This document shows, piece by piece, positions 11,231 through 45,525 of a stretch of 64,000 bases of DNA. Source of the stretch: Gemmatimonadota bacterium (GTDB lineage: Bacteria > Gemmatimonadota > Gemmatimonadetes > Longimicrobiales > Gaopeijiaceae); the NCBI GenBank assembly GCA_022827345.1, contig JAJDTB010000039.1, positions 124,001 to 188,000 on the forward strand, written 5' to 3'. The position numbers were made by a program, and so were the translations under genes. Positions within the stretch are counted from its first letter, which is position 1, and each line of letters opens with the position of its first letter. The notes under the pieces were generated by a model that did not search any database, was not told the origin of the DNA, and worked only from the letters and a program-made list of their open reading frames with translations.

Positions 11231-11231
11231 C

Positions 11232-14459: not shown

Positions 14460-14514
14460 CCTGCAGGCTGGCGAGGACCGGGCCGCCGCCCGGCCATCGC
14501 CGCCCTTCAATCAG

Positions 14515-22037: not shown

Positions 22038-22097
22038 GCCCGCCGTGACTCCGTCTCCTGAACAGCTGCACCCGCGCCGGTGCCCCGAGGCGGCTTC

Positions 22098-23876
22098 GTG
22101 ACCGCCCAGACACAATACGACGCCGTCGTCGTCGGCTCGGGGGCCGGCGGGGGCGTGACCGCGTTCATCCTGGCCACCTCGGGGCTGCGGGTGCTGCTGC
22201 TCGAGGCAGGGCGCGACTACGATCCGCTTCGCGAGACGCCGATGTTCCAGCTGCCGAAGGACGCCCCGCTGCGCGCCGCCGGCACCGAGGACAAGCCCTT
22301 CGGCTTCTACGACGCCACGGTCGACGGCGGCTGGCAGGTGCCGGGCGAGCCGTACTCGGTGGCGGAGGGCTCGGAGTTCATGTGGTGGCGCTCGCGGATG
22401 CTCGGTGGACGCACCAATCACTGGGGGCGGATTTCGCTCCGCATGGGCGAGTACGACTTCAAACCCCGCAGCAGGGACGGGCTGGGCTTCGACTGGCCCA
22501 TGTCATACGACGACCTGGCTCCCTATTACGACCGAACAGAACAACTGATCGGCGTCTACGGCTCGAACGAGGGGTTGGAGAACACGCCGAACTCGTCTCC
22601 CGGCGTGTTGCAGCCGCCCCCGAAGCCGCGGGGCTACGAGCTTCTGACCCGGAAGGCCTGCCGCCGCCTGGGGATCCCCGTGATCCCCTGTCACCTCGCG
22701 ATTCTGACGGAGACCCAGGATCCGGACCGCCTCCCCGGTGCGCTGTTCCCGGACAACGACCTGGCCCGGCGCGTCACCGCCGACTCGATGCGTGGTCGCG
22801 CCGCCTGCTACTGGGCGACGCCGTGCGGACGCGGCTGCTCGATCCGCGCCAACTTCCAGTCGACCACCGTGCTGCTGCCCCCCGCGCTCGCCACCGGCAA
22901 CCTCGAGATCCGGACGGGAGCCATGGTGCGCGAAGTCACCGTGGACTCGCAGGGACGCGCCACCGGCGTGCACTACGTCGACAAGGCCACCCTGCTCGAC
23001 GAATTCGCCGCGGCGCGCGTGGTCGTGGTTGCAGCGAGCGCCTGCGAGTCCGCGCGCATCCTCCTCAACTCGACCAGCTCCCTGTTTCCGGACGGGCTGG
23101 CGAACAGCAGCGGCCTCGTGGGCAAGTACGTCATGGACACCGTCGGCGCGAGCACCTATGCGCACATCCCCGCGCTGCAGTCGCTGCCCCCGCACAACGA
23201 GGACGGCGCCTCGGGGATCCACATGTACATGCCGTGGTGGCTCTACGGCGAGCAGCTCGCAGGCCAGCTCGACTTCCCCCGCGGCTACCACATCGAATTC
23301 GGCGGCGGACGGCGCATGCCCGGCTTCGGCGCTTTCGCGGGCCTCGAACCCCTCACGGGGGGCAGCTACGGCCAGCGCTTCAAGGACGATTGCCGACGCT
23401 ACTACGGCAGCTTCATCGGGTTCGACGGGCGCGGCGAGATGATTCCCAACGAGGACTGCTACTGCGAAATCGACCCCGATCGCGTCGACCGCTACGGCAT
23501 CCCTGTGCTGAAGTTCCACTGGAAGTGGGCCGACCACGAACTGCGTCAGGCCGTGCACATGCAGCAGACCTTCGCGGAGATCGTGGACGAGATGGGCGGG
23601 CAGGTGCTGTCGACCATTCACACCGACGGCACGCAGGCGATCTCGAAGGGTGGGCAGATCATCCACGAGGTTGGCGGAGCGATGATGGGTGAAGACCGGC
23701 GCACCTCGGTGCTGAACGAGTTCTGCCAGTCGTGGGACGTGCCCAACCTGTTCGTCACCGACGGGGCGCCTTTCGTGTCGAATGCGGACAAGAATCCGAC
23801 CCTGTCGATCATGGCGATCGCGTGGCGGGCCAGCGACTACATCGTCGAGCAGCTGAGTCAGAGGAGTATCGGGTGA
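22098..23876 (+). CDS. GMC-family FAD-dependent oxidoreductase (gluconate 2-dehydrogenase large-subunit type)
   Basis: The FAD-binding dinucleotide motif VVVGSGAGGGVTAFILA lies at the N-terminus, followed by LLLEAGRDYD. GGRTNHWGRISLR and the C-terminal block IHEVGGAMMG...FVTDGAPFVSNADKNPTLSIMA carry the GMC active-site His/Asn region. It should oxidise a sugar or alcohol and pass electrons to a membrane carrier. No signal peptide is present; export probably relies on the Tat signal of the next gene's product. I prefer the GTG at 22098, which has GAGG seven bases upstream, over an in-frame GTG at 22080. The result is 592 aa. Confidence 0.92.
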   Translation: MTAQTQYDAVVVGSGAGGGVTAFILATSGLRVLLLEAGRDYDPLRETPMFQLPKDAPLRAAGTEDKPFGFYDATVDGGWQVPGEPYSVAEGSEFMWWRSRMLGGRTNHWGRISLRMGEYDFKPRSRDGLGFDWPMSYDDLAPYYDRTEQLIGVYGSNEGLENTPNSSPGVLQPPPKPRGYELLTRKACRRLGIPVIPCHLAILTETQDPDRLPGALFPDNDLARRVTADSMRGRAACYWATPCGRGCSIRANFQSTTVLLPPALATGNLEIRTGAMVREVTVDSQGRATGVHYVDKATLLDEFAAARVVVVAASACESARILLNSTSSLFPDGLANSSGLVGKYVMDTVGASTYAHIPALQSLPPHNEDGASGIHMYMPWWLYGEQLAGQLDFPRGYHIEFGGGRRMPGFGAFAGLEPLTGGSYGQRFKDDCRRYYGSFIGFDGRGEMIPNEDCYCEIDPDRVDRYGIPVLKFHWKWADHELRQAVHMQQTFAEIVDEMGGQVLSTIHTDGTQAISKGGQIIHEVGGAMMGEDRRTSVLNEFCQSWDVPNLFVTDGAPFVSNADKNPTLSIMAIAWRASDYIVEQLSQRSIG

Positions 23877-24640
23877 GCAACGATCGGAACGTGGGTCGGC
23901 CGGATTCCGGAGTCGGCGCTTCCGGCGAGGCGGACGCGGCTGCCCGGCCAATCGAGCCTGGCGCAATCTCCCGCCGCGGCGCGCTCAAGGTGATCGCCGC
24001 GGGTGCGGCCCTCGGCGCGGCCGGCTCGTGCTCGCCCGAGGACGCCGGACAATCGGCCGACGCAGCCCACGAGGCCCTCTCCGGCTTCAATCCCCTGCCC
24101 CCCAGCAATCCCATGGCCGCCGGCACCCCAACCGATCCGGACATGCTGGCGCCCGTCGTCCCGTGGGACATGGTCCTCACCGACGAGGAGATGCGGCTCG
24201 TCGCCGCGCTGGCCGACGTGATCATCCCGGCCGACGAGCGGTCCCCGGCAGCGAGCGAGGTGGGCGTAGCCGACTACGTGAACGAGTTCGTGTCGGCGCC
24301 CGGTCACGAGGACAGCCTGACCGTGCTCAGGGGCGGCCTGGCCTGGCTGAACCGCACGGCCGAGGCACGATTCGGGGCGGCCGACTTCCCGTCCCTCGAC
24401 CTGGCCCAAAAGCACGAGATCTGCGACGAGATCTGCTTCGAGCCCGACGCGCCTGCCGAGCTCAAGCCGCAGGCCCGCTTCTTCGACCAGTTCCGCGACA
24501 TGGTGTCGACCGGATTCTGGACCACCGAGGAGGGAATGCGCGACATCGGCTATGTCGGGAACATCCCGCTGCCGAGTTTCGATGGTCCGCCGCCGGAGGT
24601 GCTGGAGCGGTTGGGGTTGGCGGGGGAGGATCTGGTGTGA
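23873..24640 (+). CDS. Gluconate 2-dehydrogenase subunit 3-family protein with Tat signal
   Basis: The 255-residue product carries a twin-arginine signal (ISRRGALKVIAAGAALGAAG) ending near a Cys. The body matches subunit 3 proteins: LTDEEMRLVAALADVIIPAD, ADYVNEFV, then FFDQFRDMVSTGFWTTEEGMRDIGYVGN. This small subunit pairs with the GMC flavoprotein and carries it across the membrane. The GTG start at 23873 overlaps the GMC stop (GTGA) and has GAGGAG upstream; a longer frame starting earlier would be internal to the GMC gene. Confidence 0.9.
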   Translation: MSNDRNVGRPDSGVGASGEADAAARPIEPGAISRRGALKVIAAGAALGAAGSCSPEDAGQSADAAHEALSGFNPLPPSNPMAAGTPTDPDMLAPVVPWDMVLTDEEMRLVAALADVIIPADERSPAASEVGVADYVNEFVSAPGHEDSLTVLRGGLAWLNRTAEARFGAADFPSLDLAQKHEICDEICFEPDAPAELKPQARFFDQFRDMVSTGFWTTEEGMRDIGYVGNIPLPSFDGPPPEVLERLGLAGEDLV

Positions 24641-24643
24641 CAC

Positions 24644-24739
24644 GGTCCCGTGGAGATGACGTGGGACAAAGGGATGTTCGGATGGGACCGGGGTCCCGCG
24701 GAGACGACCCGGGACAGCGAGATGCCCGGATGGGACGGG
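24644..24739. repeat. Two-copy 48-bp imperfect tandem repeat
   Basis: Two units begin GGTCCCG at 24644 and 24692 and share the sequence layout GTCCCGYGGAGAYGACSYGG, GGACA, then CCGGATGGGAC or TCGGATGGGAC. They fill the gap between convergent subunit-3 and fic genes. No gene is visible here. Confidence 0.65.
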
Positions 24740-24758
24740 ATCTCGCGCCAGGAGCTCT

Positions 24759-25928
24759 TCAGTTCGGCTCGGTCTCCGTGCCTTCATTCAGAACCGCAAG
24801 GTACTCGTCGTAGACGAACAACCGGCCACGCCGCTTGCCGGTGCTCTCCCGGACCAGTCCAAGGTCGACAAGCAGGCGCATGGCCGAGGAGGCGCCGGAG
24901 AACGAGATGTCGGCCCTCTCGGCAGCCGCGGTGATGGACAGAATCGGCCTCTCCCTGAGGGCGGCATAGACACGCAGGGCAGAACCCGCCCGGCGCCCGG
25001 AGCGCTCGATCGCACTCCGGTGGTTCGCGAACAGCTCCAACAGCCGCTTTGACGTGTTCACGGCTCCCTCGGCCGTGACCCTTACACCTTCCAGGAAGAA
25101 CTCCAGCCAGGCCTCCCAGTCGCCTGTTTCCCGCACGTGATCCAGGAGTTCGTAGTAGGTGCTCCTGTGTTGCTTCAGATACAGGCTCAGATACAACAGA
25201 GGCTCCTGCAGCACGCCGGCATGAAGCAGAAGCAGCGCAATGAGTAGCCGTCCCACTCTGCCGTTCCCATCCAGAAACGGATGGATCGTCTCGAACTGGA
25301 CGTGCGCAAGGGCGATCCGAACCAGCGTCGGCAAGTCGTCGTCGCCGATGTGAAGAAAGAGCTCCAGGTCGCCCATGCAGCGGTGCACCTGCGTGTGGGG
25401 CGGCGGCACGAAATGGGCGTTGCCCGGCCGCGACCCGCCGATCCAGTTCTGCGAGCGGCGAAAATACCCCGGGTCCGTGTTGCTCCCGCGTCCCTGGGAA
25501 AGGAGCACCCCGTGTATCTCCCGGATGAGTCGGTTCGACAGAGGGAAGCCTCCTTCGAGCCGGCTGCGTCCATGTTCCATCGCGGCCACAATGTTCGATG
25601 TCTCGATCGCGTCGTCGATCGGAGATCCGGGGACTTTCTCGAGTTCGAACAGGAGAAGGTCGGACAGGGACGATTGCGTGCCCTCGATCTGTGACGAGAG
25701 TACCGCTTCCTTCCAGGTGTAGGCCGACACGAAGTGGGTTCGGTCGGGCAGCAGGGCCGACAATCCGTCAAGTCGGCCCAGGTTCATCGCGGCCGACTCG
25801 AGCACCGATCTGAGCGGACCATCCATCACCGGCGCGGGATTCGGCGGCAATGGCGCCGGCACGAAGGCCCGAACCCGTTCACCGCCGGTCACGGTCAGTT
25901 CGTATCTCCCCGTCCGCCCTCGATGCAT
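24759..25928 (-). CDS. Fic-domain protein (putative AMPylase), class II layout
   Basis: The 389-residue protein has the canonical Fic loop HPFLDGNGRVGR at residues 216-227. The N-terminal inhibitory-helix motif SSQIEGT (near 78-84) matches the (S/T)xxxE(G/N) signature of autoinhibited class II Fic proteins. An N-terminal Fic_N region (LNLGRLDGL-like) and a C-terminal winged helix (ALRERPILSITAAAERADIS) complete the usual architecture. Fic enzymes transfer AMP or another group to a target hydroxyl; this layout is common in chromosomal regulators and mobile defence or TA genes. Upstream sequence is noticeably AT-rich. Confidence 0.93.
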   Translation of the reverse strand: MHRGRTGRYELTVTGGERVRAFVPAPLPPNPAPVMDGPLRSVLESAAMNLGRLDGLSALLPDRTHFVSAYTWKEAVLSSQIEGTQSSLSDLLLFELEKVPGSPIDDAIETSNIVAAMEHGRSRLEGGFPLSNRLIREIHGVLLSQGRGSNTDPGYFRRSQNWIGGSRPGNAHFVPPPHTQVHRCMGDLELFLHIGDDDLPTLVRIALAHVQFETIHPFLDGNGRVGRLLIALLLLHAGVLQEPLLYLSLYLKQHRSTYYELLDHVRETGDWEAWLEFFLEGVRVTAEGAVNTSKRLLELFANHRSAIERSGRRAGSALRVYAALRERPILSITAAAERADISFSGASSAMRLLVDLGLVRESTGKRRGRLFVYDEYLAVLNEGTETEPN

Positions 25929-26104
25929 CCAGGCGCTCCTGTTGGCTTATTCCGCGCAAGCGAATAGCATGAATCGCTATTCTGTGTTTGCTGTAAAAAC
26001 ATAATAAATGACGCTCTCTGGCTGGTTCGACGGCATCTTCCTATTATGCTCTCCGCCTTAGCGTCTATGCTATTCCGTTTTACAACATAAGTCAGAATAA
26101 GATA
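25929..26104. promoter_or_regulatory. AT-rich divergent promoter region between fic and the Sel1 gene
   Basis: These 176 bp are far richer in A+T than the surrounding DNA, with stretches such as AAAACATAATAAATGACG and CAGAATAAGATAATG. Promoters for both divergent genes must lie here. The base composition break could mark an acquisition boundary or just promoter DNA; no repeats or attachment site are visible. Confidence 0.4.
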
Positions 26105-26809
26105 ATGCGAAAAGCCAATTGTGTCCCCACCCCAGCCTTCTTTCGGCTGCGCGCCGCAGCCACGCTCCTGATCGCGGCGACTTGTGTCAGCGCCCCCCAG
26201 GAGCCCGGCCCTACCCTCCTCGAAGCCATCGACTGGTACACCGGAGTCGCCGGCGCGGTGGATAACGACCGGGCGCGCGAACTCCTGGAAGAGGCGGTCG
26301 CCGGCGGCGGTCCGCTCGCCACCATGTGGCTGGCGCGGGTCCACTCGACCGGTCGCATGGGGTTTGACCACGACCTGGAGAGGGCTCGGGAAATCGCCGA
26401 CGGTGTGATCCGCGAGGTGCAGCGCGCGGCCGAGTCTGGGGTGCTGGAAGCGGTGTTCCTGATGGGCACCGCCTACGACGAGGGCCTGGGCAAGCCCCTC
26501 GATCACGAGCGGGCGGCGCTGTGGCACCGGCGGGCCGCCGAGCGGGGACACGTTCTCGGAGCGCACAATATCGGCAACCAGTACAGCGAGGGCCGCGGGG
26601 TGGCCGTGGATCCGGCCCTGGCGGTCGAGTGGTGGACCCGGGCCGCGGAGAAGGGGGATGCGATTACGCAGCTCCGGCTGGGCGAGGCCTACGAGGCCGG
26701 GCGGGGAGTGACGCACAGCCTGGATACCGCGTGGGAGTGGTACTCGCGATCGGCGGCCGCCGGGAATGAGGACGCGAGGGAGGCACTGGGGCGGTTGGAG
26801 CACCAATGA
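26105..26809 (+). CDS. Secreted Sel1-like repeat protein
   Basis: The 234-residue precursor has a hydrophobic signal region (AAATLLIAATCVSA). The rest consists of Sel1/TPR-like helical repeats, clearest in AVFLMGTAYDEGLGKPLDHE, GAHNIGNQYSEGRGVAVDPA and TQLRLGEAYEAGRGVTHSLD, each with the G-x-G-V and A-x-x-W features of the family. Sel1 proteins scaffold protein-protein contacts in the envelope. The ATG at 26105 has no strong ribosome-binding site. It converges on sbcC with a 57-bp gap. Confidence 0.85.
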   Translation: MRKANCVPTPAFFRLRAAATLLIAATCVSAPQEPGPTLLEAIDWYTGVAGAVDNDRARELLEEAVAGGGPLATMWLARVHSTGRMGFDHDLERAREIADGVIREVQRAAESGVLEAVFLMGTAYDEGLGKPLDHERAALWHRRAAERGHVLGAHNIGNQYSEGRGVAVDPALAVEWWTRAAEKGDAITQLRLGEAYEAGRGVTHSLDTAWEWYSRSAAAGNEDAREALGRLEHQ

Positions 26810-26866: not shown

Positions 26867-29800
26867 CTATTCCAGCAGCCCGGCCAGCGCCGAGGCTCCC
26901 TCCATGCCCGCGTCGCCGCGTGCAACCTCCTGCCGCTCCGCGCGGGAGAGCCAGTGTACTTGGCTGCCGGACGGGCTGCGCTCTACCACGAGCACGTCTT
27001 CGATCTGTTCCGCGACGGCGGCGACATGGGAGATCACACCCACCATCCGGCCCGTCCCGGCGACCAACGAGAGCGACTCGATGGCGGAGTCCAGGTTGGT
27101 ACGGTCCAGCGATCCGAAGCCCTCGTCCAAGAAGAGCGACTCGAGGCGGCCGCCACTCCTGGCCATCATCTCCACCATCCCGAGCGCGAGCGCCAAAGAT
27201 CCGATGAACTGTTCCCCGCCCGACAGGCTGGCGGGGGAGCGCACCTGCCCCGAGTCGTTGTCGACGACCAGCCACTGCTGGTTTTCCAGATTCCCCGGAT
27301 CGGCAAAGCTGTAGCGGCCCCCGGTCATCTCTTCCAGCATCCTCGACGCGTACACCAGCAGGTCTCGCGACCGCCGCAACGTGAGCCACTTCAGGAATGC
27401 GCCCGGCTTGAGCGCGGCGTCGACATCACCCAGGGCGAGTTCCAGCGCGGAAACCTCGTCGGCGGTCTTTCGGAGGCTCAGGAGGTCGTCGAGGATCGCG
27501 GCGAATTCGTCCCGGCCCTGCGTGGCGGCCCGGGCGGTGTAGACTGCCTCGGTAGCGGCACTGCCTGTGGATTCGACCAGGGCCTCGAGGTCGGTGGGGT
27601 CGGCGGGAGGGTCCAACTGCCCGGCGATCCCGCGGGCTTCGGCGCGGGCCTCGTCCGTGGCAACACGAGCGCGGCGGCCAAGGTCCACTGCCAGCGCCAC
27701 CACCTCGACCATCGCTTCACGGAGCCGGTCGATTCCTTCGCGGAGCGTCTCCGGGTCCACTGGGTAGTGGATGACCGCGGGGATACCGGTGTCGGCAGCC
27801 AATTCGCGCGCCGTTTCCGCCAGGGTGGTGCGGTGGTTGGCCAAAGCGTGGACAAGAGCTACCAGAGGCTCTTGGATTTCGGTCTTGCGGGTCTCGCCGA
27901 GTTTCTTCAGCGCGGTTCTCGTGTTCTCGATTTCGCGGCGCAGGAGAATTCGCTTCTGCTCGCGCACCTGGAGGATTTCCTCGCGCTCCCGTGCCGTGTA
28001 CGAGGCGCGGTCGACGGGTGTGGTGTCGATCTCCCTCAGCTCCAGAGGATCCGCGGGAAGGGAGAGTTGGGGGCGGAGGGGCGGGTGGATGGATCGGATG
28101 TTCCGGTTGAGATCGCCGAGGGCGTCGTTGGCGGCGTTCCGGGTCCGGTCGATGTCGTCCCGCGCGTGCTCGAGTGTATGTCTGGCCGAGGTTTCCTCCA
28201 CCTGAGCGCTCGTTTGCGCCTCGCGCAGCCTATTGGCCTCGTTGCGGTGCGCGTTCAGTTTCGTCTCGGCCAGACGGAGACGTTGACGAACCGGGGCAAG
28301 GACGGGTTCCCGCTCCGGCAACGGTGCGCCCTCTGCGAGCGGGAAGGCGTCGTCCAGCCCGGCGGTGCTGCTAAGGTGGTCGAGCGCGACGGCAATCTCG
28401 GATCGGAGGTCATCCAGAACCGTCCCGGAGTCCCTCATCCTCTGCTGAACGGATTCCTGCTGCGCCTCAAGGCCGGCCACGACCTTGCTCGCCTCCCCGG
28501 CCTGCGATCTCGCTTCCTCGTGCGCCACGCCCGCCGCGTCCAGGCCGGTGTCCTGCGGCGGGGTCCAGCTCTCGGGGAGGCTGCTCTGGCAAATTGGACA
28601 TTCGTCGCCGGGACACAGGCCGCTTGCCGCTGCGACCGCCGAGTTGGAGCGATGCGCCTCCGTCAGTTCGCGCTCTGCTTGTTGCAGACGCCCTTGCGCC
28701 CCTTGCAGTTCACGCTGGGCGCTGGCGATCCTGATGGTGACTTCGGCCATCTCCTGCTTCCGCCTGGCCAACGCGTCCTCCGTCGAGCGGATGCGGGCCC
28801 GCAAGTCGGTGCACTTTTCATACCTGCGCTCGACTTCCGCCAGCAGATCACGGGCGGAGCCGACAGTTTCGGCGAGGGATGGCTCCACCGCCTCGTGCCC
28901 GGTCGCCCGATCCCTTGCCGATGCAAGGACTTTCTGCGCCTGGGCATGATGCTTCTCCGCCTCGGCCGCGTCGGCAATCGTCCCGCGCAACGCCTCGGCC
29001 GCGTCGACGGCCTTCGCGACCTGTGCCGGGATCGCGTCCAACGCGGCCAGGGTGCGCGCAATCTCACGATGGTCGGGGCCGTCATCGATCGGAATGCCGT
29101 TCAGGTCGCGCTTCAGGCTGGCCTCGCGCTCCTCCAGCTCCGTCGCTTGGGCCTGCACCCGGCGCTGTGCATGCTCCACGGGCACCAGCCGGTCGGCCAG
29201 GTCGTCCATCGCTGACGGGGCAATGCGTTCGCCCGCCTGCCGGGCCGCCGTGATCCTCTCCCGAGAACGACGGAAGGTCTCCCAAACCCGTGCGGAGCGA
29301 TCCCGGAGATCGGTCAAAGCATTCGCTCGGCGGCTCGCCGTGTCGGCCTCGGAGCTCAGCCGCGCAAGGTGGGCTTCGGGATCATCCGGATGGCGGTGCA
29401 GTTCGTCCTGCAGCCGCACCGCCAGCGTTCTGACCTCCCCCAGCCGCTGCCCTGCCACCTGTCCCGCCGCCTCCAGGTCCCGGGTGCGCCACACCTGTCG
29501 CAGGATCTCCGTGCGGGCGGAAGGTGCGTCCTCGACCAGAAGACGGGCAAAGCGCCCCTGCGGCAGGATCACGGTTCGCAGGAAGGCGTCGCTGTCGAGT
29601 CCGATCAGGGCTTGCACACGGTCGTTGACGGGTCTGACCTGCTCGACCTTTTCGACCGTCTCGGCGCCGGCCCCGTAGCGAACCAGCTGCGCCTGGGGAG
29701 GGCGGAGCCCCCCCGCCCCAGCGCGCCGGTCCACTCTGCTGACCTCCCACTCCTCGCCGGCCACCTGGAAGCGTAGTACCACGCGCATCAGGTCCGACGT

Positions 29801-29998
29801 GTCGTTCATCAGTTCCTGCTTGGACTTGCTCCCGAGCGAGGTCAGTCCGTACAGGGCGTAGGTCATCGCTTCCAGGATCGAGGACTTGCCGGCGCCGGTA
29901 TCGCCGATTACGGCGATCTGGGTGCGGTCGCCGAAGTCGATCCCGACCTCGGCCCGGAAGGAACGTAGTCCCTCGATGGTGATGCGAACTGGGCGCAT
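26867..29998 (-). CDS. sbcC: SbcC/Rad50-type SMC-like ATPase
   Basis: The 1043-residue protein has an N-terminal Walker A GDTGAGKSS near residue 32, long coiled-coil arms on both sides of a zinc hook (CPGDECPICQ near 463-472), and C-terminal signature SLSGGEQFIGSLALALG near 919 with Walker B LFLDEGFGSLD near 961. It pairs with SbcD to open and process DNA ends and hairpins in an ATP-dependent way. It lies 4 nt downstream of sbcD in a unit that also carries HerA-like and NurA-like genes, a layout best known in archaea. Confidence 0.95.
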   Translation of the reverse strand: MRPVRITIEGLRSFRAEVGIDFGDRTQIAVIGDTGAGKSSILEAMTYALYGLTSLGSKSKQELMNDTSDLMRVVLRFQVAGEEWEVSRVDRRAGAGGLRPPQAQLVRYGAGAETVEKVEQVRPVNDRVQALIGLDSDAFLRTVILPQGRFARLLVEDAPSARTEILRQVWRTRDLEAAGQVAGQRLGEVRTLAVRLQDELHRHPDDPEAHLARLSSEADTASRRANALTDLRDRSARVWETFRRSRERITAARQAGERIAPSAMDDLADRLVPVEHAQRRVQAQATELEEREASLKRDLNGIPIDDGPDHREIARTLAALDAIPAQVAKAVDAAEALRGTIADAAEAEKHHAQAQKVLASARDRATGHEAVEPSLAETVGSARDLLAEVERRYEKCTDLRARIRSTEDALARRKQEMAEVTIRIASAQRELQGAQGRLQQAERELTEAHRSNSAVAAASGLCPGDECPICQSSLPESWTPPQDTGLDAAGVAHEEARSQAGEASKVVAGLEAQQESVQQRMRDSGTVLDDLRSEIAVALDHLSSTAGLDDAFPLAEGAPLPEREPVLAPVRQRLRLAETKLNAHRNEANRLREAQTSAQVEETSARHTLEHARDDIDRTRNAANDALGDLNRNIRSIHPPLRPQLSLPADPLELREIDTTPVDRASYTAREREEILQVREQKRILLRREIENTRTALKKLGETRKTEIQEPLVALVHALANHRTTLAETARELAADTGIPAVIHYPVDPETLREGIDRLREAMVEVVALAVDLGRRARVATDEARAEARGIAGQLDPPADPTDLEALVESTGSAATEAVYTARAATQGRDEFAAILDDLLSLRKTADEVSALELALGDVDAALKPGAFLKWLTLRRSRDLLVYASRMLEEMTGGRYSFADPGNLENQQWLVVDNDSGQVRSPASLSGGEQFIGSLALALGMVEMMARSGGRLESLFLDEGFGSLDRTNLDSAIESLSLVAGTGRMVGVISHVAAVAEQIEDVLVVERSPSGSQVHWLSRAERQEVARGDAGMEGASALAGLLE

Positions 29999-30002
29999 CC
30001 GG

Positions 30003-31310
30003 TCAGCCGTTCCCGTGTCGGCTCGGTGCGCCGGTGTGTGGTGTGCCGTTGTGCCCGGCCGCGCTGCCTCCCGGGGTACCGCGCAGTGCGGCGAGGACTC
30101 CCTCGGCGCGCACCGTGAGCCGGGTCAACCCGAAGTCCGGCCCGTCCTCGTCCCCCGATCCGGCCACGGCCTCGCGAAAGAGTGCCCGCACCGTCTCGCG
30201 GGACGCTTTCGTGGCCCTTCTGGTCGCCGCTGTGCTCCGCCACTCGACGAAGAGGTCCTCGATGGAAGGCTCCTCGCTCTCCCCGTCCCCGGAGATCGCC
30301 TTGACGGGTCGGTTGGCCACTTCGTTGACCAGATTGAAGATCGCGCACTTCGGCGACCACTCGGCCACCCGGTCCGCCAGTTCGGGAATCGGATCGTCGG
30401 ACTTGACAATGGCCTTGAGGAAACAGCCGTCCAGCGCCCCATTCGCCGCGCGCGCCTCCAGTTCGTGAAGCGTCCCGGCGAAGCTATGCAGAGGCCGCCC
30501 TGGGGGCAGCTCGCGTTCGCCCACCTGGACGTCGTCGCCGATAGTGACCACGACAGCGTGCTTGCTCTGGCCGCTCTCGCCGTAGTCCAGCGGGATGAGC
30601 GACCCGGCGTACCGGCCGCGCGCGCTTCCAGGAAGCTGCTGCGGGTCATGGATGTGACCGAAGGCGCAGTAGAGCGCGCGGTGCAGACCCTTCGTGTGCG
30701 TAGCGTGGTCCTCGCCCACGGTGAACCGCCGCTCGGAGTTGCCGGGACGCGCCCCGTCTACGTGCAGGTGGGCCGTGTAGAGCACGATGCCGTTTGGGCC
30801 CGCTGCCTCGCGAGCGCGGCCTATCACATGGTCGTTGAGGCTGCGGATTCCGTCGGCGTAGTCGCCCTCGAAGCGCGACGCGTCGCCGGTGGCGTAGTCG
30901 GTGATCGCGCCTGGGGGGATGAACGGGACGCACGCGAGGGCGACGGGGACATCCGCGAGGTCGTCGAACTCCAGGACGCGCGGCGAGGTGACGAACCGGA
31001 GACGCCGGGGCGAGGCCATGCCCGCCATGTCGTCGAGTACATTGAAGAGGGCAGCCGAATCGTGATTGCCGCAGATCACCACGGTGGGGGCGATCCGTGC
31101 CATCTGCTGCAGGGCCATGACCCCGAGCCGCAATGCCGGGTAGGGGGGGCGGTAGGCGTCGAATAGGTCGCCCGCGTGGATGATCAGGTCGGGGATCTCG
31201 GAGGCGGCCACGTCCAGAAGCGCGCGTAGCGCCGCACGGTGGTCATCCATCCGGTCGTGGCGCCCCAGCTTCGCCCCAAGATGCCAGTCGGCGGTGTGAA
31301 GCAGCTTCAA
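30003..31310 (-). CDS. sbcD: SbcD/Mre11-type nuclease
   Basis: The five metallophosphoesterase motifs are all present: ADWH (D8, H10), AGDLFD (D48), GNHD (N82, H83), AHLH and GHIH. This Mn-dependent enzyme nicks and degrades DNA ends together with SbcC. I chose the TTG at 31310, which starts the protein at LKLLHTADWHLGAKLG, the usual SbcD beginning, with GGGGA upstream; the frame remains open far upstream inside herA, but that part is out of frame for any gene. The result is 435 aa. It follows the HerA gene by 10 bp. Confidence 0.93.
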   Translation of the reverse strand: MKLLHTADWHLGAKLGRHDRMDDHRAALRALLDVAASEIPDLIIHAGDLFDAYRPPYPALRLGVMALQQMARIAPTVVICGNHDSAALFNVLDDMAGMASPRRLRFVTSPRVLEFDDLADVPVALACVPFIPPGAITDYATGDASRFEGDYADGIRSLNDHVIGRAREAAGPNGIVLYTAHLHVDGARPGNSERRFTVGEDHATHTKGLHRALYCAFGHIHDPQQLPGSARGRYAGSLIPLDYGESGQSKHAVVVTIGDDVQVGERELPPGRPLHSFAGTLHELEARAANGALDGCFLKAIVKSDDPIPELADRVAEWSPKCAIFNLVNEVANRPVKAISGDGESEEPSIEDLFVEWRSTAATRRATKASRETVRALFREAVAGSGDEDGPDFGLTRLTVRAEGVLAALRGTPGGSAAGHNGTPHTGAPSRHGNG

Positions 31311-31320
31311 CGCTCGTCCC

Positions 31321-33159
31321 CTACAATTCCACCTGCGGGCCCGACATGGCGGTGAGGTTGGACACGATCGTGTCTGTCCGCTTCCGGTCACGCGCGCCGT
31401 CGGCCTCGGCCTCGTCGGGGTTGGTTGCGTAGGGCGGGAAGGGGAAACGCAGCGGGATGGGCTCGGGAACGATCGGCTGGGACAGCACCATGGTCCCAGG
31501 CATGAAGCGCGAGGCACGCTCGCGGAGCGCGGAAGACAGGAAGCGGTACGAGTCAGCCTCGTTCGCGTCGAGGCGCCCGGCAACCTTGAGCGACGCGTTG
31601 CGGGGAAGCGCCGGAGCGACTGCCGAAGCGGCCTGCTGCGCGCCCACCAGAAGCACGCCCAGGGAACGTCCGCGCTCGGCGATGTCGACGAGCAGCTCGC
31701 GCAGCGGCGAGTACCCCTTCGCGGGTGCGTACTTGTTGAGTTCGTCGAGAACGACGAAGCGCAGTGGAACGCGCCCCGTCCCCTGCTTCTCGCGCCACAC
31801 GCCGTCCAGCAGGGAGCCGACCACGAAACGTTGCGCATCGTCGTGCAGGGTGGAGATGTCGACCACATGCAGGCGGGCGTTCTCCGACGACACGGGCCTG
31901 AGGCCGCAACCGACCAGGGGTCCGATGTGCTTGCGCAGCCGCAGCATCCGGCGCAGGTAGGCCTGGCGGGTGCCCGACTGGGTGCGTCCGAACCAGGTCT
32001 TGAGAGCCTCGTCGTCGTCCCGGTTGGCCATCTTCTCGGTGAAATCGACGAATCCCCCGAAGTCCTCGATCACGTGGCCGGCGCCGGCGGACACCGGTTG
32101 GGGTTCCTTCGCCGCCAGGCGGTCCGGGTCGAAGCTCGTGTCCTCGGGGACGGTCGGGAGGATCACCACCGCGCCGGTTTCGCCGCCCTCCAATCGCCGA
32201 AGATGGCGCAGAAGCTGAATGCGGAACTGCTGCTCGATGAAGCCGACCTGGGTCGAGCGGTCGTCCTCGGAGGTAAAGCAGAACTGGAGGAGCTGGTCGC
32301 GGATGAACTGCTCCGGGGTCCATCCGTAGGCGTGCACATCGCCGGTGTCGCGTGACTTGACGCCGGGCACCGTCCCCGAGACGCCGGGCCGGCGCGGGGC
32401 GTACAGGCGCACCGAACGGAAGGGGCCGGGATCGCCGACGCCGAGGGCGTTCCACTGCGCGCGGGCTCCCGGCCTGCCCGGGAACTCCGAGTTTCGGCGA
32501 TCGAGGTGGAGCAGGTCCTCGCCCTTGGTGTTGAAGACGAGCGCGCGCACGTTCTCGCGTTCGGCGCGGCCTCCGAGCAGCTCCATGCCGCCCTGGGTCT
32601 CCAGGAGTTGGTAGAGGATGTACAGCGCGTACGAGGTCTTGGTCGCGACGCCCGATATCCCCGAGATCGAGAAGTGCCCTCCGGAGCGACCGTCTACGAA
32701 GCGCATGTCGGCATAGACCGGCTCGCCCCCCATGTCCAGGCCGACCGGGAGCTTGCCGCGCTTCATCTCGTCCTCGAACAGGGCGACCGTGCGGTCTGCG
32801 CCGACGGCGCGCATGGCTACGGAACCCGCGTTCGGCGCCACGAAGAGCTCGGGAACGACGCGCAGCACCCCCACCTCGGCCAGACGCACGTGCTCGGCAG
32901 GCATGACGCGATCGACGACCCGGGCCGTGTCGGACGGCAGCTCGGCGCCTTCGAAACGGCTGCGTAACTCGGTGACGATCCCGTAGTGGGTGACGTTCGT
33001 CCCGTCGGGCAGTTCGTTGCGGACGGCGACCAGTTGGTCGAGCTGGACGTTTGCGTCCGGGTCGAGTACTACCTGGAAATCGCGCGAATTGCTGCCGTGC
33101 GAGCCGTCCACCAGCCCGATCCGGGGGTCCGGCACGGTGCTGCCGTCCTGGTCGCTCAC
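31321..33159 (-). CDS. herA: HerA-like ATPase/translocase
   Basis: The 612-residue protein resembles bacterial HerA/FtsK-type ATPases: an N-terminal HAS-like barrel region, a P-loop region FSISGISGVATKTSYALY near 163-180, Walker B FVVLDELNKYAP near 465-476, and a C-terminal arginine-rich part (VAGRLDANEADSYRFLSS). HerA hexamers pull DNA through NurA for end resection. The P-loop is atypical: the glycine normally preceding the conserved Lys is replaced by Thr (VATKTS). The GTG start overlaps the upstream NurA-like stop as GTGA. Confidence 0.85.
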   Translation of the reverse strand: MSDQDGSTVPDPRIGLVDGSHGSNSRDFQVVLDPDANVQLDQLVAVRNELPDGTNVTHYGIVTELRSRFEGAELPSDTARVVDRVMPAEHVRLAEVGVLRVVPELFVAPNAGSVAMRAVGADRTVALFEDEMKRGKLPVGLDMGGEPVYADMRFVDGRSGGHFSISGISGVATKTSYALYILYQLLETQGGMELLGGRAERENVRALVFNTKGEDLLHLDRRNSEFPGRPGARAQWNALGVGDPGPFRSVRLYAPRRPGVSGTVPGVKSRDTGDVHAYGWTPEQFIRDQLLQFCFTSEDDRSTQVGFIEQQFRIQLLRHLRRLEGGETGAVVILPTVPEDTSFDPDRLAAKEPQPVSAGAGHVIEDFGGFVDFTEKMANRDDDEALKTWFGRTQSGTRQAYLRRMLRLRKHIGPLVGCGLRPVSSENARLHVVDISTLHDDAQRFVVGSLLDGVWREKQGTGRVPLRFVVLDELNKYAPAKGYSPLRELLVDIAERGRSLGVLLVGAQQAASAVAPALPRNASLKVAGRLDANEADSYRFLSSALRERASRFMPGTMVLSQPIVPEPIPLRFPFPPYATNPDEAEADGARDRKRTDTIVSNLTAMSGPQVEL

Positions 33160-34133
33160 ACGGCCTCCTCATCTCGGTTGTGCTGCATTACGACTTCCCG
33201 AACGGCGCGCAGCGCCAGCCGCGAGTCGCCGAGAAGGTGGTGAAGGTGCTGTTCCAGCCGCGCGACCGGGGCAAGGTTGACTGGGGCCCGGGCGTCGCGG
33301 TGTGGCGCGGATGCGAACACGGGAAGCCAGCGTGCGGCCCGATCCACCGTGGCGATAGCTTGGCTGCTGCCCGAACTCGCAGGCACCTCAAGGCGCGCGA
33401 TCCCCGCCCAGGGTCCCGCCCAAGGACCGGGGTCGCCCACCCGGATATAGCACGCATACCGCTCGTCCTTCATGGCGAAGAGGCTTGTTCGTTCTCCCAC
33501 CGCGAGGCGTGGCACGGCCTGCCAGTGCTCGACCGCGAGGGTGCGTCGGTGATGGGTCTTGACGTATCCGACCACATGCGTTGCGCGGCTGCGGCGAATG
33601 CTGTGCAGCGGTCCGTCGAAGACGACGAGCCATCCTTCCGCGAAGAGGCGGTCGGCGATGGCGGCTTCGGTGTCCCGCATGAGGCGTTGGAGATGCTGTG
33701 ACGCCGCGTTGGGTTCCTCGCTGTCGACCGAAAGGCACATCCAACGCCACCCTCCCGGATGCGGGCGCAGCCACACCTGCTGTCCACCGGAGAAAATGAC
33801 CGCGCGACCGATATCCACCTTGTCGATGGACGCCGGGCCGTTCGGGCCAATCAGCACCGCGCCCGCGCCCCACGCCCCCGCGAGCCCCGTGATCGTCTCC
33901 CCCACCGGGCTCGTTCGCGTGAGGTGCGCCTCGGTTCGGCGCACCCCGTCCACGAAACAGAGGTGTTTCGGGGGGCCTGCATCGGCGGGCTGATGAATGC
34001 GGAAACTGCCCCCGTCCTCCACGATTCGGCAATCAACCGTGTGTTCCTCTTCTTCGTCCGCGCGGAAGCCGGCGCCGTGGGACACGTCGAAAGGTTCGAC
34101 TCCGATGAAGGGGCGGCGCGCGCCGTCGTTCAT
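33156..34133 (-). CDS. NurA-like nuclease candidate
   Basis: The protein is 325 residues from the ATG at 34133; longer starts at 34211 or 34271 are possible, and no strong ribosome-binding site decides. Features consistent with the NurA RNase-H-like fold are FVDGVRRTEAH near residues 60-70 (the Asp of the D-G motif), VVFDGPLHS with D173, VVGYVKTHH with K192, and a C-terminal HLLGDSRLALRAVRE. NurA degrades DNA 5' to 3' when driven by HerA. Overall similarity is low and the family assignment rests on these motifs plus the 4-nt coupling to a HerA gene. Confidence 0.6.
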   Translation of the reverse strand: MNDGARRPFIGVEPFDVSHGAGFRADEEEEHTVDCRIVEDGGSFRIHQPADAGPPKHLCFVDGVRRTEAHLTRTSPVGETITGLAGAWGAGAVLIGPNGPASIDKVDIGRAVIFSGGQQVWLRPHPGGWRWMCLSVDSEEPNAASQHLQRLMRDTEAAIADRLFAEGWLVVFDGPLHSIRRSRATHVVGYVKTHHRRTLAVEHWQAVPRLAVGERTSLFAMKDERYACYIRVGDPGPWAGPWAGIARLEVPASSGSSQAIATVDRAARWLPVFASAPHRDARAPVNLAPVARLEQHLHHLLGDSRLALRAVREVVMQHNRDEEAV

Positions 34134-34223
34134 GTGGAGGCTGTGGTATGGCGGGTCCCGATGACCCGGCCGATCGGAGGGGAGGTGGAGTGTTCGCTCA
34201 TGGTCGGCCATCAACATAAGCGA

Positions 34224-34259
34224 ACGGCCCCGGACCGGCATCAAACCGCCCGGGGCCGT
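34224..34259 (-). terminator. Probable terminator after TonB receptor gene
   Basis: ACGGCCCCGG (34224-34233) pairs with CCGGGGCCGT (34250-34259) around a 16-nt loop. On the minus strand it follows the receptor stop at 34335 by about 75 nt and is succeeded by a moderately T-rich stretch (TTCGCTTATGTT). It would also separate the receptor unit from the nurA-herA-sbcDC operon. Confidence 0.65.
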
Positions 34260-34334
34260 AGTCCTCCGCACTCCGGGCGCCGCCGGGTCCAGATCCGCGG
34301 CGCAGCCCGCACGGTCAGCCTGCCGGCGGTCACC

Positions 34335-37229
34335 CTACCAGCTGTACCCCACCCGCGTGTAGTAGTAGCCCCCGTTGAACCCGAACGGTGTGAATTGGCC
34401 GAAGCGGTTGCCAACGCCCGCCGCCGCGCCCGGGTACTCCTCCGGGTAGGTGTTGAGCAGGTTCTGGGCGCCGACCGTAAGTGTCCAGCGGTCGGCGAAT
34501 GTCCGGCCCGCCTCCGCATCGAAGATGATGCGCGCCGGATAGTCGATGGTGTTCGCCGGATCCGACTCGTAGTAGGGCTGCTCGCCGTCGAAGTAGCCGC
34601 CCCAGTAGCTGCCGCGCACCAGGAAACGGGTGCCACCCGCGAAGACGTGGTTCATCGCGACGTTGCCGCGCACGCCCGGGAGCCCTTGTTCGAGGATCCG
34701 GATGCGGTGCGCGGTGAGGGTGTTCGCGTTGAAGTCCGTCACCGTGGTCCGGGTCCAGTTCCACGCACTGCTCAGCGTCGTGGTGGAGCCGCCCGCTCCC
34801 TCGATATCGTAGGCGCCGACCAGGTCGATTCCGTCCGTCCGGGTCGTGAAGTCGTTGATGAAGAAGCGGAACCGCGCGAGCACGCCACCCGGCCGAATGA
34901 TGCCCTCGGCGATGAGTTGCTCGATCTCCGTCGGGCTGAGCGACCTGTCGGCGCTGGTCGTCAGACGGTCCGACACGCGGATCCGGAAGAAGTCCATCGA
35001 GAGACTGAAGGGACCATCGTCGTATACCGCCCCCAATGCCAGGTTGACCGACTTCTCGGGCGTGAGCGCCTCGCCGCCGAAATTCACCGCCAGCGGTGAT
35101 GTGGACGGGATGGTCCCGTTGTTCGTCAGGTCCATGATCGCGGGATCGTAGATCGTCGAAATGTTGAAGGCGTTCTGCTGCCCGGGGGTGGGCGCGCGGA
35201 AGCCGGTGCTGACGCTGGCCCGAAGCCCGAGGCTCTCCGACGCGCTCACGCGTCCCGCGACCTTGCCGTTGACGGTCGTGCCGAAGTCCGAGAACCGCTC
35301 GACGCGTCCCGCCATGCCGAACGTCCAGGCACCCTCGGGCTCGCGCATCTCCATGTCGCCGTAGACGGCGAAGTTGTTGCGGTTCCACACTCCCTCTGTC
35401 AGCGGTCCGAACCCGGTGAACCCGTTGGACCCGGGGGTGAATCCCTGCGTCGCGAGCGGCCCCTCGGTCCACGATTCCGTGCTGCCCCGAATGATCTCGA
35501 AACGCTCGTTTCGCCACTCGGCACCGCCGGCAACGTTGATCCTTTCGTTCAACGCGTACGAGAGATCGACGTTCAGATTAACTTCCTGCTGGTCGTAGAC
35601 ACCCGGGTTGAACCAGGGGGTGCAGGGCTGATCGGGCACGACGAAGGAGAGCGTTCTGTCGTTCCCGGCGCACGGCTGGTCCGGTCCCAGCGAGGCGTTG
35701 ACCGTGTTGTACATGTAGAAGTCCAGGTTGGACTTGCCCCAGGCCGCGCTCGCATCCCAGTTCAGGTCGCCGCTGGCGCCCCTGAGACCCGCCACCGCGG
35801 ACGCGTCCAGAAGGTACGAGCCGAATTGCGGGGTGAACCCCCCCGGGAAGAGCTTCTGGAAGGTGAAGCAGTTGGGATCGTTCATGACCCGGGTATACGC
35901 GCCCTTGTTCCCGGGGGTGTCGATGACCACACCGTCATCGGTGACCCGGACTTCGGGGCACATCGCAGATCCGTCGAGCACACCGTCGTGCGCATCGAGC
36001 ATGTCCCCGATCAGGAGAACCCGCTGGCCGTCGGTGTTCCTGGTTCCGAAGACGCCGCTGCGCGTGCCCGGATTGCGGTAGTAGAAGCCACCCTCCACCT
36101 GCTTGCTCACGTAGTTGCCGTGGCCATAGAACTGCGTGTTGTCGTTGAAGAGGTAGCCCATGTTCGCCCACAGCTTGATCTCGTTCGACACCTGGGGGGA
36201 GCCCCAGACCTGTGCGGGCGACCGGATGCTCGTGTTGCCGGCACCGAGCAGCGCCAGGGCGTCGTTGCGCTGCGTGCTGCGATCCGTGGGATTGGCGTTG
36301 CCGTACTCGCCGGTCAGGTTCAGGAAGCCGGTCTCGCCGAGCGGCAACCCGAAGTTCCCTGACAGGTTGTACATCTCGCCATCCCCGGGGAACATGCCCT
36401 CCTCGAAGGGCTCGCTGGTCGCGCCGAAGGGGTATCCGCCGGTCTTGAGCTCGATCAGGCCGCCCGACCGGTCGTTCCTCAGCACCATGTTCATGACGCC
36501 GGCGATCGCGTCGGAACCGTACTGCGCGGATGCGCCGTCGCGGAGCACCTCGATCTGCTCCAGTGCAATGCCGGGGATGAGCGCGATGTCGGGGCCCTGG
36601 GAGCCGTCGGCGAGGCCGTTGCCGTACCAGGTGATGACCGCCGCGCGGTGGCGCCGCTTCCCGTTGATGAGTACCAGGGTGTGGTCTGGGGCGAGGCCGC
36701 GCAGGTTGGCGGGCCGCACGAATGTAGCCGCGTCGCTGATCGGCTGGATGTTGACGTTGAACGACGGCACCACGTTGCGCACCAGGTTGGCGAAGTCGGT
36801 GTCGCCCTGCTCCACGATTTCCCGCGTCGGAATCACGTCGACGGGCACCGGCGACTCCGTTACGATGCGGGGCCGCGCGCGGCTCCCCACCGCGACCAGG
36901 CCCTCGAGCTCGAGCGTCGTCTCGCTGATCGCGACGTTCAGCGTGGTTGGCTGGCCGTCGACCACGGTCACCTGCCGCCGCGCGGTCTGGTAACCGATCA
37001 GCACGACCACCACTTCATGCGTTCCAGCCGGGACGCCCCCGACTTCGTAGCTGCCGTCCGTACCCGTTATGGCCCCCAGCGCCAGGTCCGCCAGGCTGAC
37101 CTGCGCCCCCGCGACGGCACCTCCCGTGCCGGCCGCGGTGACTCGTCCCCGCAGGCTACCCTGCGCAGCGGCCGCACCGGCCTGCGTGAGCACAAGCAAC
37201 GTGACAATCAGCGTCGCTCTCTTCACCAT
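34335..37229 (-). CDS. TonB-dependent receptor, paralogue A
   Basis: The 964-residue precursor has a signal peptide (ATLIVTLLVLTQAGAAAAQ), a carboxypeptidase-regulatory-like domain (LRGRVTAAGTGGAVAGAQV), and a plug with ANLRGLAPDHTLVLINGKRR and AQYGSDAIAGVMN, followed by a barrel ending in YYYTRVGYSW. It is a close paralogue of the receptor at 38969-41845: long identical tracts include PSFNVNIQPISDAATF and GVLARFRFFINDF. The ATG at 37229 has GGGGAGGGG upstream. It lies 49 bp after the periplasmic binding-protein gene and probably shares its transcript. Confidence 0.93.
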   Translation of the reverse strand: MVKRATLIVTLLVLTQAGAAAAQGSLRGRVTAAGTGGAVAGAQVSLADLALGAITGTDGSYEVGGVPAGTHEVVVVLIGYQTARRQVTVVDGQPTTLNVAISETTLELEGLVAVGSRARPRIVTESPVPVDVIPTREIVEQGDTDFANLVRNVVPSFNVNIQPISDAATFVRPANLRGLAPDHTLVLINGKRRHRAAVITWYGNGLADGSQGPDIALIPGIALEQIEVLRDGASAQYGSDAIAGVMNMVLRNDRSGGLIELKTGGYPFGATSEPFEEGMFPGDGEMYNLSGNFGLPLGETGFLNLTGEYGNANPTDRSTQRNDALALLGAGNTSIRSPAQVWGSPQVSNEIKLWANMGYLFNDNTQFYGHGNYVSKQVEGGFYYRNPGTRSGVFGTRNTDGQRVLLIGDMLDAHDGVLDGSAMCPEVRVTDDGVVIDTPGNKGAYTRVMNDPNCFTFQKLFPGGFTPQFGSYLLDASAVAGLRGASGDLNWDASAAWGKSNLDFYMYNTVNASLGPDQPCAGNDRTLSFVVPDQPCTPWFNPGVYDQQEVNLNVDLSYALNERINVAGGAEWRNERFEIIRGSTESWTEGPLATQGFTPGSNGFTGFGPLTEGVWNRNNFAVYGDMEMREPEGAWTFGMAGRVERFSDFGTTVNGKVAGRVSASESLGLRASVSTGFRAPTPGQQNAFNISTIYDPAIMDLTNNGTIPSTSPLAVNFGGEALTPEKSVNLALGAVYDDGPFSLSMDFFRIRVSDRLTTSADRSLSPTEIEQLIAEGIIRPGGVLARFRFFINDFTTRTDGIDLVGAYDIEGAGGSTTTLSSAWNWTRTTVTDFNANTLTAHRIRILEQGLPGVRGNVAMNHVFAGGTRFLVRGSYWGGYFDGEQPYYESDPANTIDYPARIIFDAEAGRTFADRWTLTVGAQNLLNTYPEEYPGAAAGVGNRFGQFTPFGFNGGYYYTRVGYSW

Positions 37230-37278
37230 TGGAATCCCCTCCCCTGCCAAAGTGGTTCCGTAAACAATGACTCTCGTT

Positions 37279-38676
37279 TCATGACATGCCGAACTTTGCT
37301 TCCCAGTCGCGGAGGAGCGCGAAATGGCTGCCGTCGGCAACGGTGTAGTACACTCTCTGCATCCCCTGCCGGCGGTCGGGCCGGAAGGACACCGGTTCGC
37401 CGATTCCCAGGGGGAAGTTGCGCACGCTGAAGACCGCCTGCTCCAGCCGGGACCTGTCCGGACGTCCGCCCAGGCGCCGGAGGATTTCCGTGATCACCCT
37501 GGCGTTGAGAAACCCTTCCAGGCTGACGAAGCCGCGGGCGAGGGGTTGATACGATTCGCCTTCGGTTAGCAGCTGCAGGTCGTCGGGCAGCTGGGGATCG
37601 TACCGGAACATCAGCCGGTGATATTCGTTCACTGCCGGCAGCGAGGCGTCGTCGTAGGCGGGCACAACCTGTGAATTGACCAGGAACCGGGTGTACGAAT
37701 CCGGGTTCCCGCGTCGCTCGCGTACGGTCCGCTGCAGGTTTTCGCTCCCGACGAAGGACAGGTTGGCCACCGGCACGTGCAGCCCCAGATCGACGGCATC
37801 GCGGGCGAACGCGGCACACGCGGCGTAGGCGCCGATGCAGATGACGGCGTCGGGCGACACCGCCTTCAGGATATCCACCTGGCGCCTCATGCTCGCGCCG
37901 AACGGGGTGCCGCGGCTGTAGGTGGCCTCGCCCACAATCGTCTCGCCGTGCCGCGCCAGCGCCTCGCGCACTCCGGCCCAGCCGCTGCGGCCATACGCGT
38001 CGATCTGATAGAAGACCGCCACTCGCCGGCGTCCGATGCCGACGAAGTTGTCGACCAGCCCGGCCGTCTCCTGCCGGTAGGAAGCGCGCAGGTTGAAGGC
38101 GAACTCGCCGTAGGGAGGTTCACGCTGCGGTTCCGCCCCCGTAAAGGGGAAGAACAGGTAGACCCGCCGGTCGCGGAATCTCTTCAGCAGAGGCAGAACC
38201 CGGGTAACGGTCGGGGTGCCGACATACCCGAAGAGGAGGAAGACATTGTCCTCCTGCATCAGCCGGAGGGTGTTCGCTACGCACGCTTCCGGCTGGTAGC
38301 CGTCGTCGTAGAGCTTGAGGACGATCCGGCGGCCGTTCACTCCTCCGGTGTCGTTGACGTAGCTGAAATAGGCCTGCGCGCCGCGATACAGCTCCCTGCC
38401 CAGGCCGCGGGAAGGGCCCGAGAACGCGGCCGACACGCCAAGCACGATTTCATCGTCCTGCGTGGCAGCGACGCGCGGGCGATGGCGACTCGACGGAGAG
38501 GCAGCGGCCAGCGGTTTCGCCCAGGGCGCGGCGGCCAGCGCGGCGAGCCCGGAGCGCAGGAGCGATCTGCGCGTCAGCGGGTTCGAACTTCGCGGTGCTT
38601 CGGCGGAGGATGCAGCGGCAGCGGTACCCTCGTCCGGTCGCGCCTCAAACACCGTCCGGTCTCGCCGTCCAACCAT
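37279..38676 (-). CDS. Branched-chain-amino-acid-type ABC substrate-binding protein with Tat signal
   Basis: The 465-residue protein has a twin-arginine signal (LTRRSLLRSGLAALAAAP, residues 34-51) after a low-complexity leader. The body is a type I periplasmic-binding protein: VLGVSAAFSGPSRGLGREL, AYFSYVNDTGGVNGRRIVLK, LFGYVGTPTVTRVLPLL and AVFYQIDAYGRSGWAGVREAL. No permease or ATPase genes accompany it, so it may act as a receptor or sensor, or feed a transporter encoded elsewhere. It sits directly upstream of TonB receptor paralogue A. Confidence 0.88.
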   Translation of the reverse strand: MVGRRDRTVFEARPDEGTAAAASSAEAPRSSNPLTRRSLLRSGLAALAAAPWAKPLAAASPSSRHRPRVAATQDDEIVLGVSAAFSGPSRGLGRELYRGAQAYFSYVNDTGGVNGRRIVLKLYDDGYQPEACVANTLRLMQEDNVFLLFGYVGTPTVTRVLPLLKRFRDRRVYLFFPFTGAEPQREPPYGEFAFNLRASYRQETAGLVDNFVGIGRRRVAVFYQIDAYGRSGWAGVREALARHGETIVGEATYSRGTPFGASMRRQVDILKAVSPDAVICIGAYAACAAFARDAVDLGLHVPVANLSFVGSENLQRTVRERRGNPDSYTRFLVNSQVVPAYDDASLPAVNEYHRLMFRYDPQLPDDLQLLTEGESYQPLARGFVSLEGFLNARVITEILRRLGGRPDRSRLEQAVFSVRNFPLGIGEPVSFRPDRRQGMQRVYYTVADGSHFALLRDWEAKFGMS

Positions 38677-38779
38677 GCGAGAGGGTCCCCTTTGTCTGTC
38701 ATTAATGGGCTTTCAAACGGCCTGCACCACACACATTTCCGCCACCCTGATGCAGCCTACTGGCTGGTGAGCAAACCTG

Positions 38780-38812
38780 CAACCGACAGGAGGATTCAAA
38801 CAACCGACAGGA
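38780..38812 (-). promoter_or_regulatory. Two direct repeats CAACCGACAGGA spaced 21 bp
   Basis: The 12-bp sequence CAACCGACAGGA occurs at 38780-38791 and again at 38801-38812, one period of 21 bp (two helical turns). It lies 104-136 bp upstream of the binding-protein gene start. Direct repeats with this period often bind response regulators of the OmpR type as two dimers. The rest of 38677-38966 holds the terminator of the next gene. Confidence 0.45.
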
Positions 38813-38888
38813 TCCTGTGACGCCGGGCCTGGCTCGGGGGATTTCGGGTTGTGGTTACCACCGGGACGGTCCTGCTCTGGCCAAACGA

Positions 38889-38921
38889 GGCCCCGGCCCG
38901 GCGCGATGCCGAGCCGGGGCC
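38889..38921 (-). terminator. Probable terminator after TonB receptor paralogue B
   Basis: GGCCCCGGC (38889-38897) pairs with GCCGGGGCC (38913-38921), and the inner CGGC/GCCG extends the stem. It lies about 48 nt past the receptor stop on the minus strand. Its composition and position match the hairpin after paralogue A at 34224-34259. Confidence 0.65.
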
Positions 38922-38968
38922 ATCGTCGGGCCGACCTGGGTCGAACCCGGACTGCCCGCGGGGTCAGC

Positions 38969-41845: not shown

Positions 41846-41846
41846 T

Positions 41847-42986: not shown

Positions 42987-43142
42987 GCATCGCCTCCTTC
43001 ACTGCAGCAGTTTCAGAACGTTCCCGTCGCAAAAGCCGGGAAACCGACTGTCCACTCCTATTTTGCCGGGCACAGGGCCCCGGGACAAGGCCGAAGGGTG
43101 CTGAAACGCCCTCCAGGGCGGTTTCTCGACCCGTCCGCCGCG

Positions 43143-44792: not shown

Positions 44793-44804
44793 CTGCTTGC
44801 CTCC

Positions 44805-45401: not shown

Positions 45402-45525
45402 GTCATCGCTCCCTGTGATGTGGAGTGGGCCGGCGCGAGTGGGCACCTCACCGGAGCGCTTGCCGCCGCCGGAACGATCCCCCGCCCTTGCCTGCAATTG
45501 ACATTCCCACTGTCAATAGACGGTG

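Follow-up and report, generated by a model that had tools for sequence, protein, structure and literature searches.

A run of four genes, nurA-herA-sbcD-sbcC, in a 64,000-nucleotide stretch of the genome of a Gemmatimonadota bacterium (contig JAJDTB010000039.1, positions 124,001 to 188,000; the whole stretch is called the window here) raises the question of whether these genes belong together as one unit, and what such a unit would do. The archaeal mre11-rad50-herA-nurA operon brings the same four functions together (PMC2288612, PMC12977600), and papers of 2023 and 2026 describe NurA-HerA as archaeal with few bacterial exceptions (PMC9960219, PMC12977600). We found that the four genes behave as one exchangeable unit, present once in each of the 15 genomes examined from the window's genus. 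The best explanation is probably a four-component DNA-end-processing machine that can be exchanged as a unit. As had been proposed from the sequence alone (the sequence-only reading), the genes form a minus-strand operon whose members overlap or lie no more than 10 bp apart, with coordinates that needed no correction (Table 1). The herA start overlaps the nurA stop (GTGA; −4 nt), and the spacings are +10 nt between herA and sbcD and +4 nt between sbcD and sbcC. The G+C content of the four genes is 0.68-0.69, no different from the surroundings. A scan for sigma-70 promoters found none, and terminator-like sites were fewer than in shuffled sequences, making the scan uninformative.

The sequence-only reading had held its NurA and HerA assignments weakly; both are right, as shown by profile and fold matches to the Deinococcus radiodurans NurA-HerA complex. 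NurA scored 23.6 bits with the Pfam model PF09376 (cut-off 21), and a search of the window's genome with this model matched the nurA gene and no other. A profile of 52 homologues matched D. radiodurans NurA (7f6d_H, E 2.7e-58) and Thermotoga maritima NurA (1zup, E 7e-27). The NurA AlphaFold (AF2) model (predicted local distance difference test, pLDDT, 91) retrieved 7f6d_G (1.8e-16), 1zup (3.8e-14) and Sulfolobus solfataricus NurA (2ygk, 3.1e-5) in Foldseek and nothing else at E≤0.001, so that the fold is that of NurA and not an unrelated one. D62, E156 and D173 are invariant in the 52 homologues and are probably the catalytic residues. HerA matched D. radiodurans HerA (7f6d_B) over its full length in a search of Protein Data Bank (PDB) profiles (E 1e-192), and Foldseek matched its model to 7wrw (E 6.5e-62, 37% identity). 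In place of a canonical Walker A (GxxxxGK[ST]), HerA has the P-loop SGISGVATKT at position 166, with K174 invariant in 45 homologues and a Walker B, FVVLDE, at 468. Because D. radiodurans HerA, whose ADP complex is solved (7wrx), has the same P-loop, the non-canonical motif does not exclude a HerA of the bacterial type. The HAS-barrel Pfam model reached 12.7 bits (cut-off 25.2), and the structure model has an N-terminal beta-rich region.

The motifs of SbcD and SbcC are complete, as the first inspection had indicated. SbcD, which scored 113.5 bits with TIGR00619 (cut-off 77.65), has DxH at 8, GDLFD at 47, GNHD at 81 and GHIH at 218, whereas SbcC has Walker A at 32, the hook (CxxC) at 467, LSGGE at 925 and Walker B at 955. 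Since SbcC did not reach the TIGR00618 cut-off (184.4 bits against 478.5), it is best classed, from its sequence, as a divergent SbcC/Rad50-like protein. One SbcD above the cut-off was found in the window's genome. The same genome (G000) has a second, weaker Mre11-like/Rad50-like pair (C41:143030, L156; 417 and 924 aa, with AAA_27 in the longer protein), which resembles YhaO/YhaN.

Two versions of the unit, A and B, occur in the genus. Each of its 15 genomes has exactly one herA, sbcD and nurA of these versions, ten genomes having A and five B, never both and never none. If ten and five carriers had been placed independently, the probability of so perfect a split would be 1/3003, a figure that ignores kinship. 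An extra herA piece is present in two of the genomes. In G138 this piece is a C-terminal fragment (L154, ∼10750-12700), a second herA 3′ end that is 74% identical to the C-terminus of the window HerA and lies past an insert that encodes an OLD-like ATPase; the arrangement looks like that left by an element which integrates at the herA end and restores the gene. The unit lies at two chromosomal sites in the genus, the window's place being site 1. Site 2 is empty in G000, G058, G173, G017 and G152, where its flanking genes are ∼0.8 kb apart and the operons lie elsewhere, and it is filled, with the operon between the flanking genes, in G066 (A), G063 (B) and G151 (B). A and B loci at site 2 share both flanks. 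G017 and G152 share with site 1 only the TonB-receptor side, and the place of their operon may be a rearranged site 1.

At site 1 the exchange has left a trace. The sister genome G173 aligns to the window at 89-92% over positions 16931-24658, 26156-26805 and 34154-46889, and the segment between the last two blocks holds version A in the window and version B in G173. (A further difference, at 24659-26155, lies around the Fic-domain gene; a Fic-related gene also sits between herA and sbcD in G138.) The beginning of a version-B herA, MSEHSTSPPIGRVIGT, remains as a scar beside the version A operon. The scar is identical at 47 of 48 nt to the intact B herA of G173, and the region upstream of B herA is also kept in the window. 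Because the window retains both this start and its upstream region, we conclude that version B was there first and was replaced in place by version A. The leader open reading frame (ORF) that starts in the scar ends in a TGA overlapping the nurA ATG (ATGA), an arrangement that may provide translational coupling to nurA. The swap and its scar are direct sequence evidence that versions with differing gene orders and less than 50% identity in HerA have exchanged places.

Table 1. Positions in the window of the operon, its genes, the traces of the replacement and the adjoining gene.
Feature	Position	Strand	Description	Basis
Operon nurA-herA-sbcD-sbcC	26867-34133	−	four genes	reading frames and motifs
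nurA	33156-34133	−	325 aa, ATG start; predicted nuclease of NurA fold (RNase-H-like)	
herA	31321-33159	−	612 aa, GTG start; predicted HerA/FtsK-type translocase	
sbcD	30003-31310	−	435 aa, TTG start; Mre11-type nuclease	TIGR00619 and motifs
sbcC	26867-29998	−	1043 aa; Rad50-type ATPase, CPIC zinc hook	AAA_23 and SbcC_Walker_B above cut-off
Replaced segment	26806-34153		version A in the window, version B in G173	
Scar	34154-34201	−	first 16 codons of version-B herA, start codon included	alignment to G173
Leader ORF	34130-34201	−	23 codons	
Fic-domain gene	24759-25928	−	Fic_N and Fic; adjoins the operon	

In a HerA tree, three versions were distinguished within the phylum. Version A, that of the window, is shared among Gemmatimonadota, Acidobacteriota, Spirochaetota and Gammaproteobacteria with a HerA identity of 69-76%. 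Version B, whose HerA is ∼43% identical to that of A and stands beside actinobacterial forms in the tree, has the order herA-sbcD-sbcC-nurA. Version C is very distant (HerA 26-29% identical), characterizes other families of the class and was found in 106 of 200 genomes of the phylum. Its clusters contain two further genes, one for a GNAT acetyltransferase; the latter follows sbcC in L052 and L058, and a gene of ∼300 aa with no family assigned lies between herA and sbcD in L052, L054 and L058. The locus L044 (G035, 2590-9933) is chimeric, with the A gene order, and because it pairs a version B HerA (∼44% identical to the window protein) with a version A NurA (62-63%), modules can evidently be mixed.

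To describe the distribution of the set, we used 112 loci consisting of the window, those obtained by searching 200 phylum genomes and the best 80 of at least 543 relatives from public bacterial genomes; some genomes are in both sets, so that the loci are not all independent. All four genes were on one strand in 79 loci, and many of the other 33 stop at a contig edge. The order was nurA-herA-sbcD-sbcC in 59 of the full loci and herA-sbcD-sbcC-nurA in 19, with one listed out of order owing to an overlong ORF; such regularity is far beyond chance. The four proteins also diverged in a correlated manner across 77 loci (Mantel r 0.65-0.90, permutation maximum 0.28). Among the best 80 public loci, the full set was found in Actinomycetota (32), Acidobacteriota (7), Chloroflexota (7), Gemmatimonadota (6), Pseudomonadota (2) and Spirochaetota (1). 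One of the two Pseudomonadota copies sits on a 5.07-Mb chromosome record and so cannot be put down to misbinned short contigs. A Streptomyces linear plasmid and a conjugative cyanobacterial plasmid also carry the complete set, with NurA annotated as 'hypothetical protein'; in the cyanobacterial copy (L146, 7946-14946; nurA-herA-sbcD-sbcC) both nurA and herA are annotated as hypothetical. Thus, the assumption of the sequence-only reading that bacteria normally have only sbcDC was too strong, and nurA-herA, which it had asked to be looked for next to sbcDC in other genomes, adjoins sbcDC in many of them.

SbcCD processes blocked or hairpin ends. In the machine that we favor, the SbcD-SbcC complex (Mre11-Rad50 type) would recognize, nick or clear a broken, blocked or hairpin end, after which a HerA hexamer would load on the duplex and pump it into a NurA dimer. 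NurA would degrade mainly the 5′ strand and leave 3′ tails for RecA; alternatively, the DNA would be destroyed if nothing stops NurA. Joint action of the four proteins, this direction of resection and the physiological role are what we infer for the window's operon. A core function is argued by the presence of the set in every member of the genus, and a role in phage conflict by version swapping and defence-type neighbours. Resection of the 5′ tail has been reported for D. radiodurans HerA-NurA (PMC9960219). Several observations weigh against a resection machine of this kind. Loss of nurA or herA gave modest or even improved damage resistance in Deinococcus or Thermus (PMC9960219), and for HerA-NurA of Thermococcus kodakarensis the authors considered a role in resection unlikely, favoring antiviral action (PMC12977600). 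The Thermus nurA-herA genes do not adjoin sbcDC (PMC5448004), and herA and sbcD are several kb apart in some of the relatives that we examined, showing that the genes need not be tightly linked. Furthermore, an AddAB-like pair (at C38) gives the window's genome another candidate for resection besides the operon.

A further possibility, which we consider less likely than not, is that the set is a functional stand-in for AddAB/RecBCD where these are lacking, with versions A and B in the genus being redundant extras. The AddAB-type domain PDDEXK_1 was found in 19 of the 106 version C genomes, compared with 55 of the 69 that have no clear HerA (including 3 weak hits), a contrast with a Fisher p-value of 3e-16 before any correction for phylogeny. 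This suggests that version C can stand in for AddAB. However, the contrast follows a few deep family-level splits, 12 genomes have neither, and the PDDEXK_1 model also covers Cas4-like proteins. In addition, all 25 genomes with version A or B have PDDEXK_1.

We considered it rather unlikely that the main purpose of the set is defence, with the operon degrading linear foreign DNA in the manner of RecBCD and its versions being exchanged because of phage-made inhibitors. Gam and other phage inhibitors are directed at SbcCD and RecBCD. Consistent with this explanation, close relatives carry divergent versions at the same sites, the similarity of version A HerA across four phyla or classes suggests transfer, two copies of the set are on plasmids, and defence-type genes lie inside the cluster of relatives. 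In the herA-sbcD or sbcD-sbcC gap we found Druantia DruE3 (G160), GmrSD_N/NsnA-like (G197), OLD-like AAA ATPase (G138, G197), AAA_14-DUF4143 (G192, G138, G197), Mrr_cat_2 (G138) and DUF4268 (L082) genes. The herA-sbcD space of L152 (G160, 1567-18983) is filled by DruE3 (Druantia type III) together with other genes. PADLOC matches at E≤1e-20 were made by ∼12-14 of 109 flanking proteins and by ∼3-4 of 106 controls drawn from five genomes of the set (Fisher p 0.02-0.07), a suggestive but weak enrichment from a rough count over related loci, with no more than 25 families listed and no correction for shared ancestry. Moreover, unlike typical accessory defence systems, the operon is present in all 15 genus genomes, and the distant version C occurs in about half of the phylum genomes. 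No full-length phage homologue was found, and with NF042943, the model for defence HerA, the protein reached 12.6 bits, far short of the cut-off of 800. A phage-borne origin was rejected, as no relative was confirmed in viral contigs and two phage records gave only partial matches of 26-29%. The known HerA anti-phage systems were likewise rejected, their models being weak or far below cut-off and the partner being NurA rather than SIR2 or DUF4297. Equally doubtful, in our estimation, is a widespread bacterial RecBCD-like machine that has a role in both repair and immunity, is needed in exactly one copy and has its versions swapped at fixed sites under pressure from phage inhibitors.

Acquisition of the whole operon from archaea is very improbable even though thermophilic archaea have the same four functions, because SbcD scored 115 bits with the Escherichia coli-type SbcD model and 35 with the highest-scoring archaeal Mre11 model, and the match of HerA to Deinococcus HerA (E 1e-192) was far stronger than that to T. 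kodakarensis HerA (6e-5). Accordingly, the 'archaeal order' noted in the sequence-only reading is no sign of archaeal descent, SbcD fitting bacterial SbcD models best and HerA and NurA being of the bacterial (Deinococcus) type.

The four-component machine that we favor has known relatives. Already known are the archaeal four-gene cluster, from which the present set differs in that its SbcD and HerA are of the bacterial and not the archaeal type, and one bacterial case, nurA-hepA-sbcD-sbcC of Oceanithermus profundus (PMC5448004), with the same genes in the same order. The latter, a single member of the Thermales, was presented as recruitment of sbcDC after archaeal gene gain, whereas the set described here spans many phyla, occurs in two gene orders and has had its versions swapped in place. 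D. radiodurans NurA-HerA (PDB 7f6d, 7wrw; PMC9960219) belongs to the same HerA and NurA families and has the same unusual P-loop, but was studied as a two-gene system without SbcCD. The anti-phage systems HerA-Sir2 and HerA-DUF4297 (PMC11291478) likewise couple a HerA ring to a nuclease; here, in contrast, the partner is NurA with SbcCD. No description of the wide distribution, single occupancy or in-place swap was found in the open-access literature, although the 2004 FtsK-HerA survey (Iyer et al.) may mention bacterial clusters. New are the single-occupancy pattern, the two versions at two sites and the in-place replacement of B by A with its scar. With the four-gene unit, SbcCD included, occurring in no fewer than six bacterial phyla, mesophilic culturable hosts such as Micromonospora and Planosporangium are available for the genetics of the disputed choice between resection and defence.

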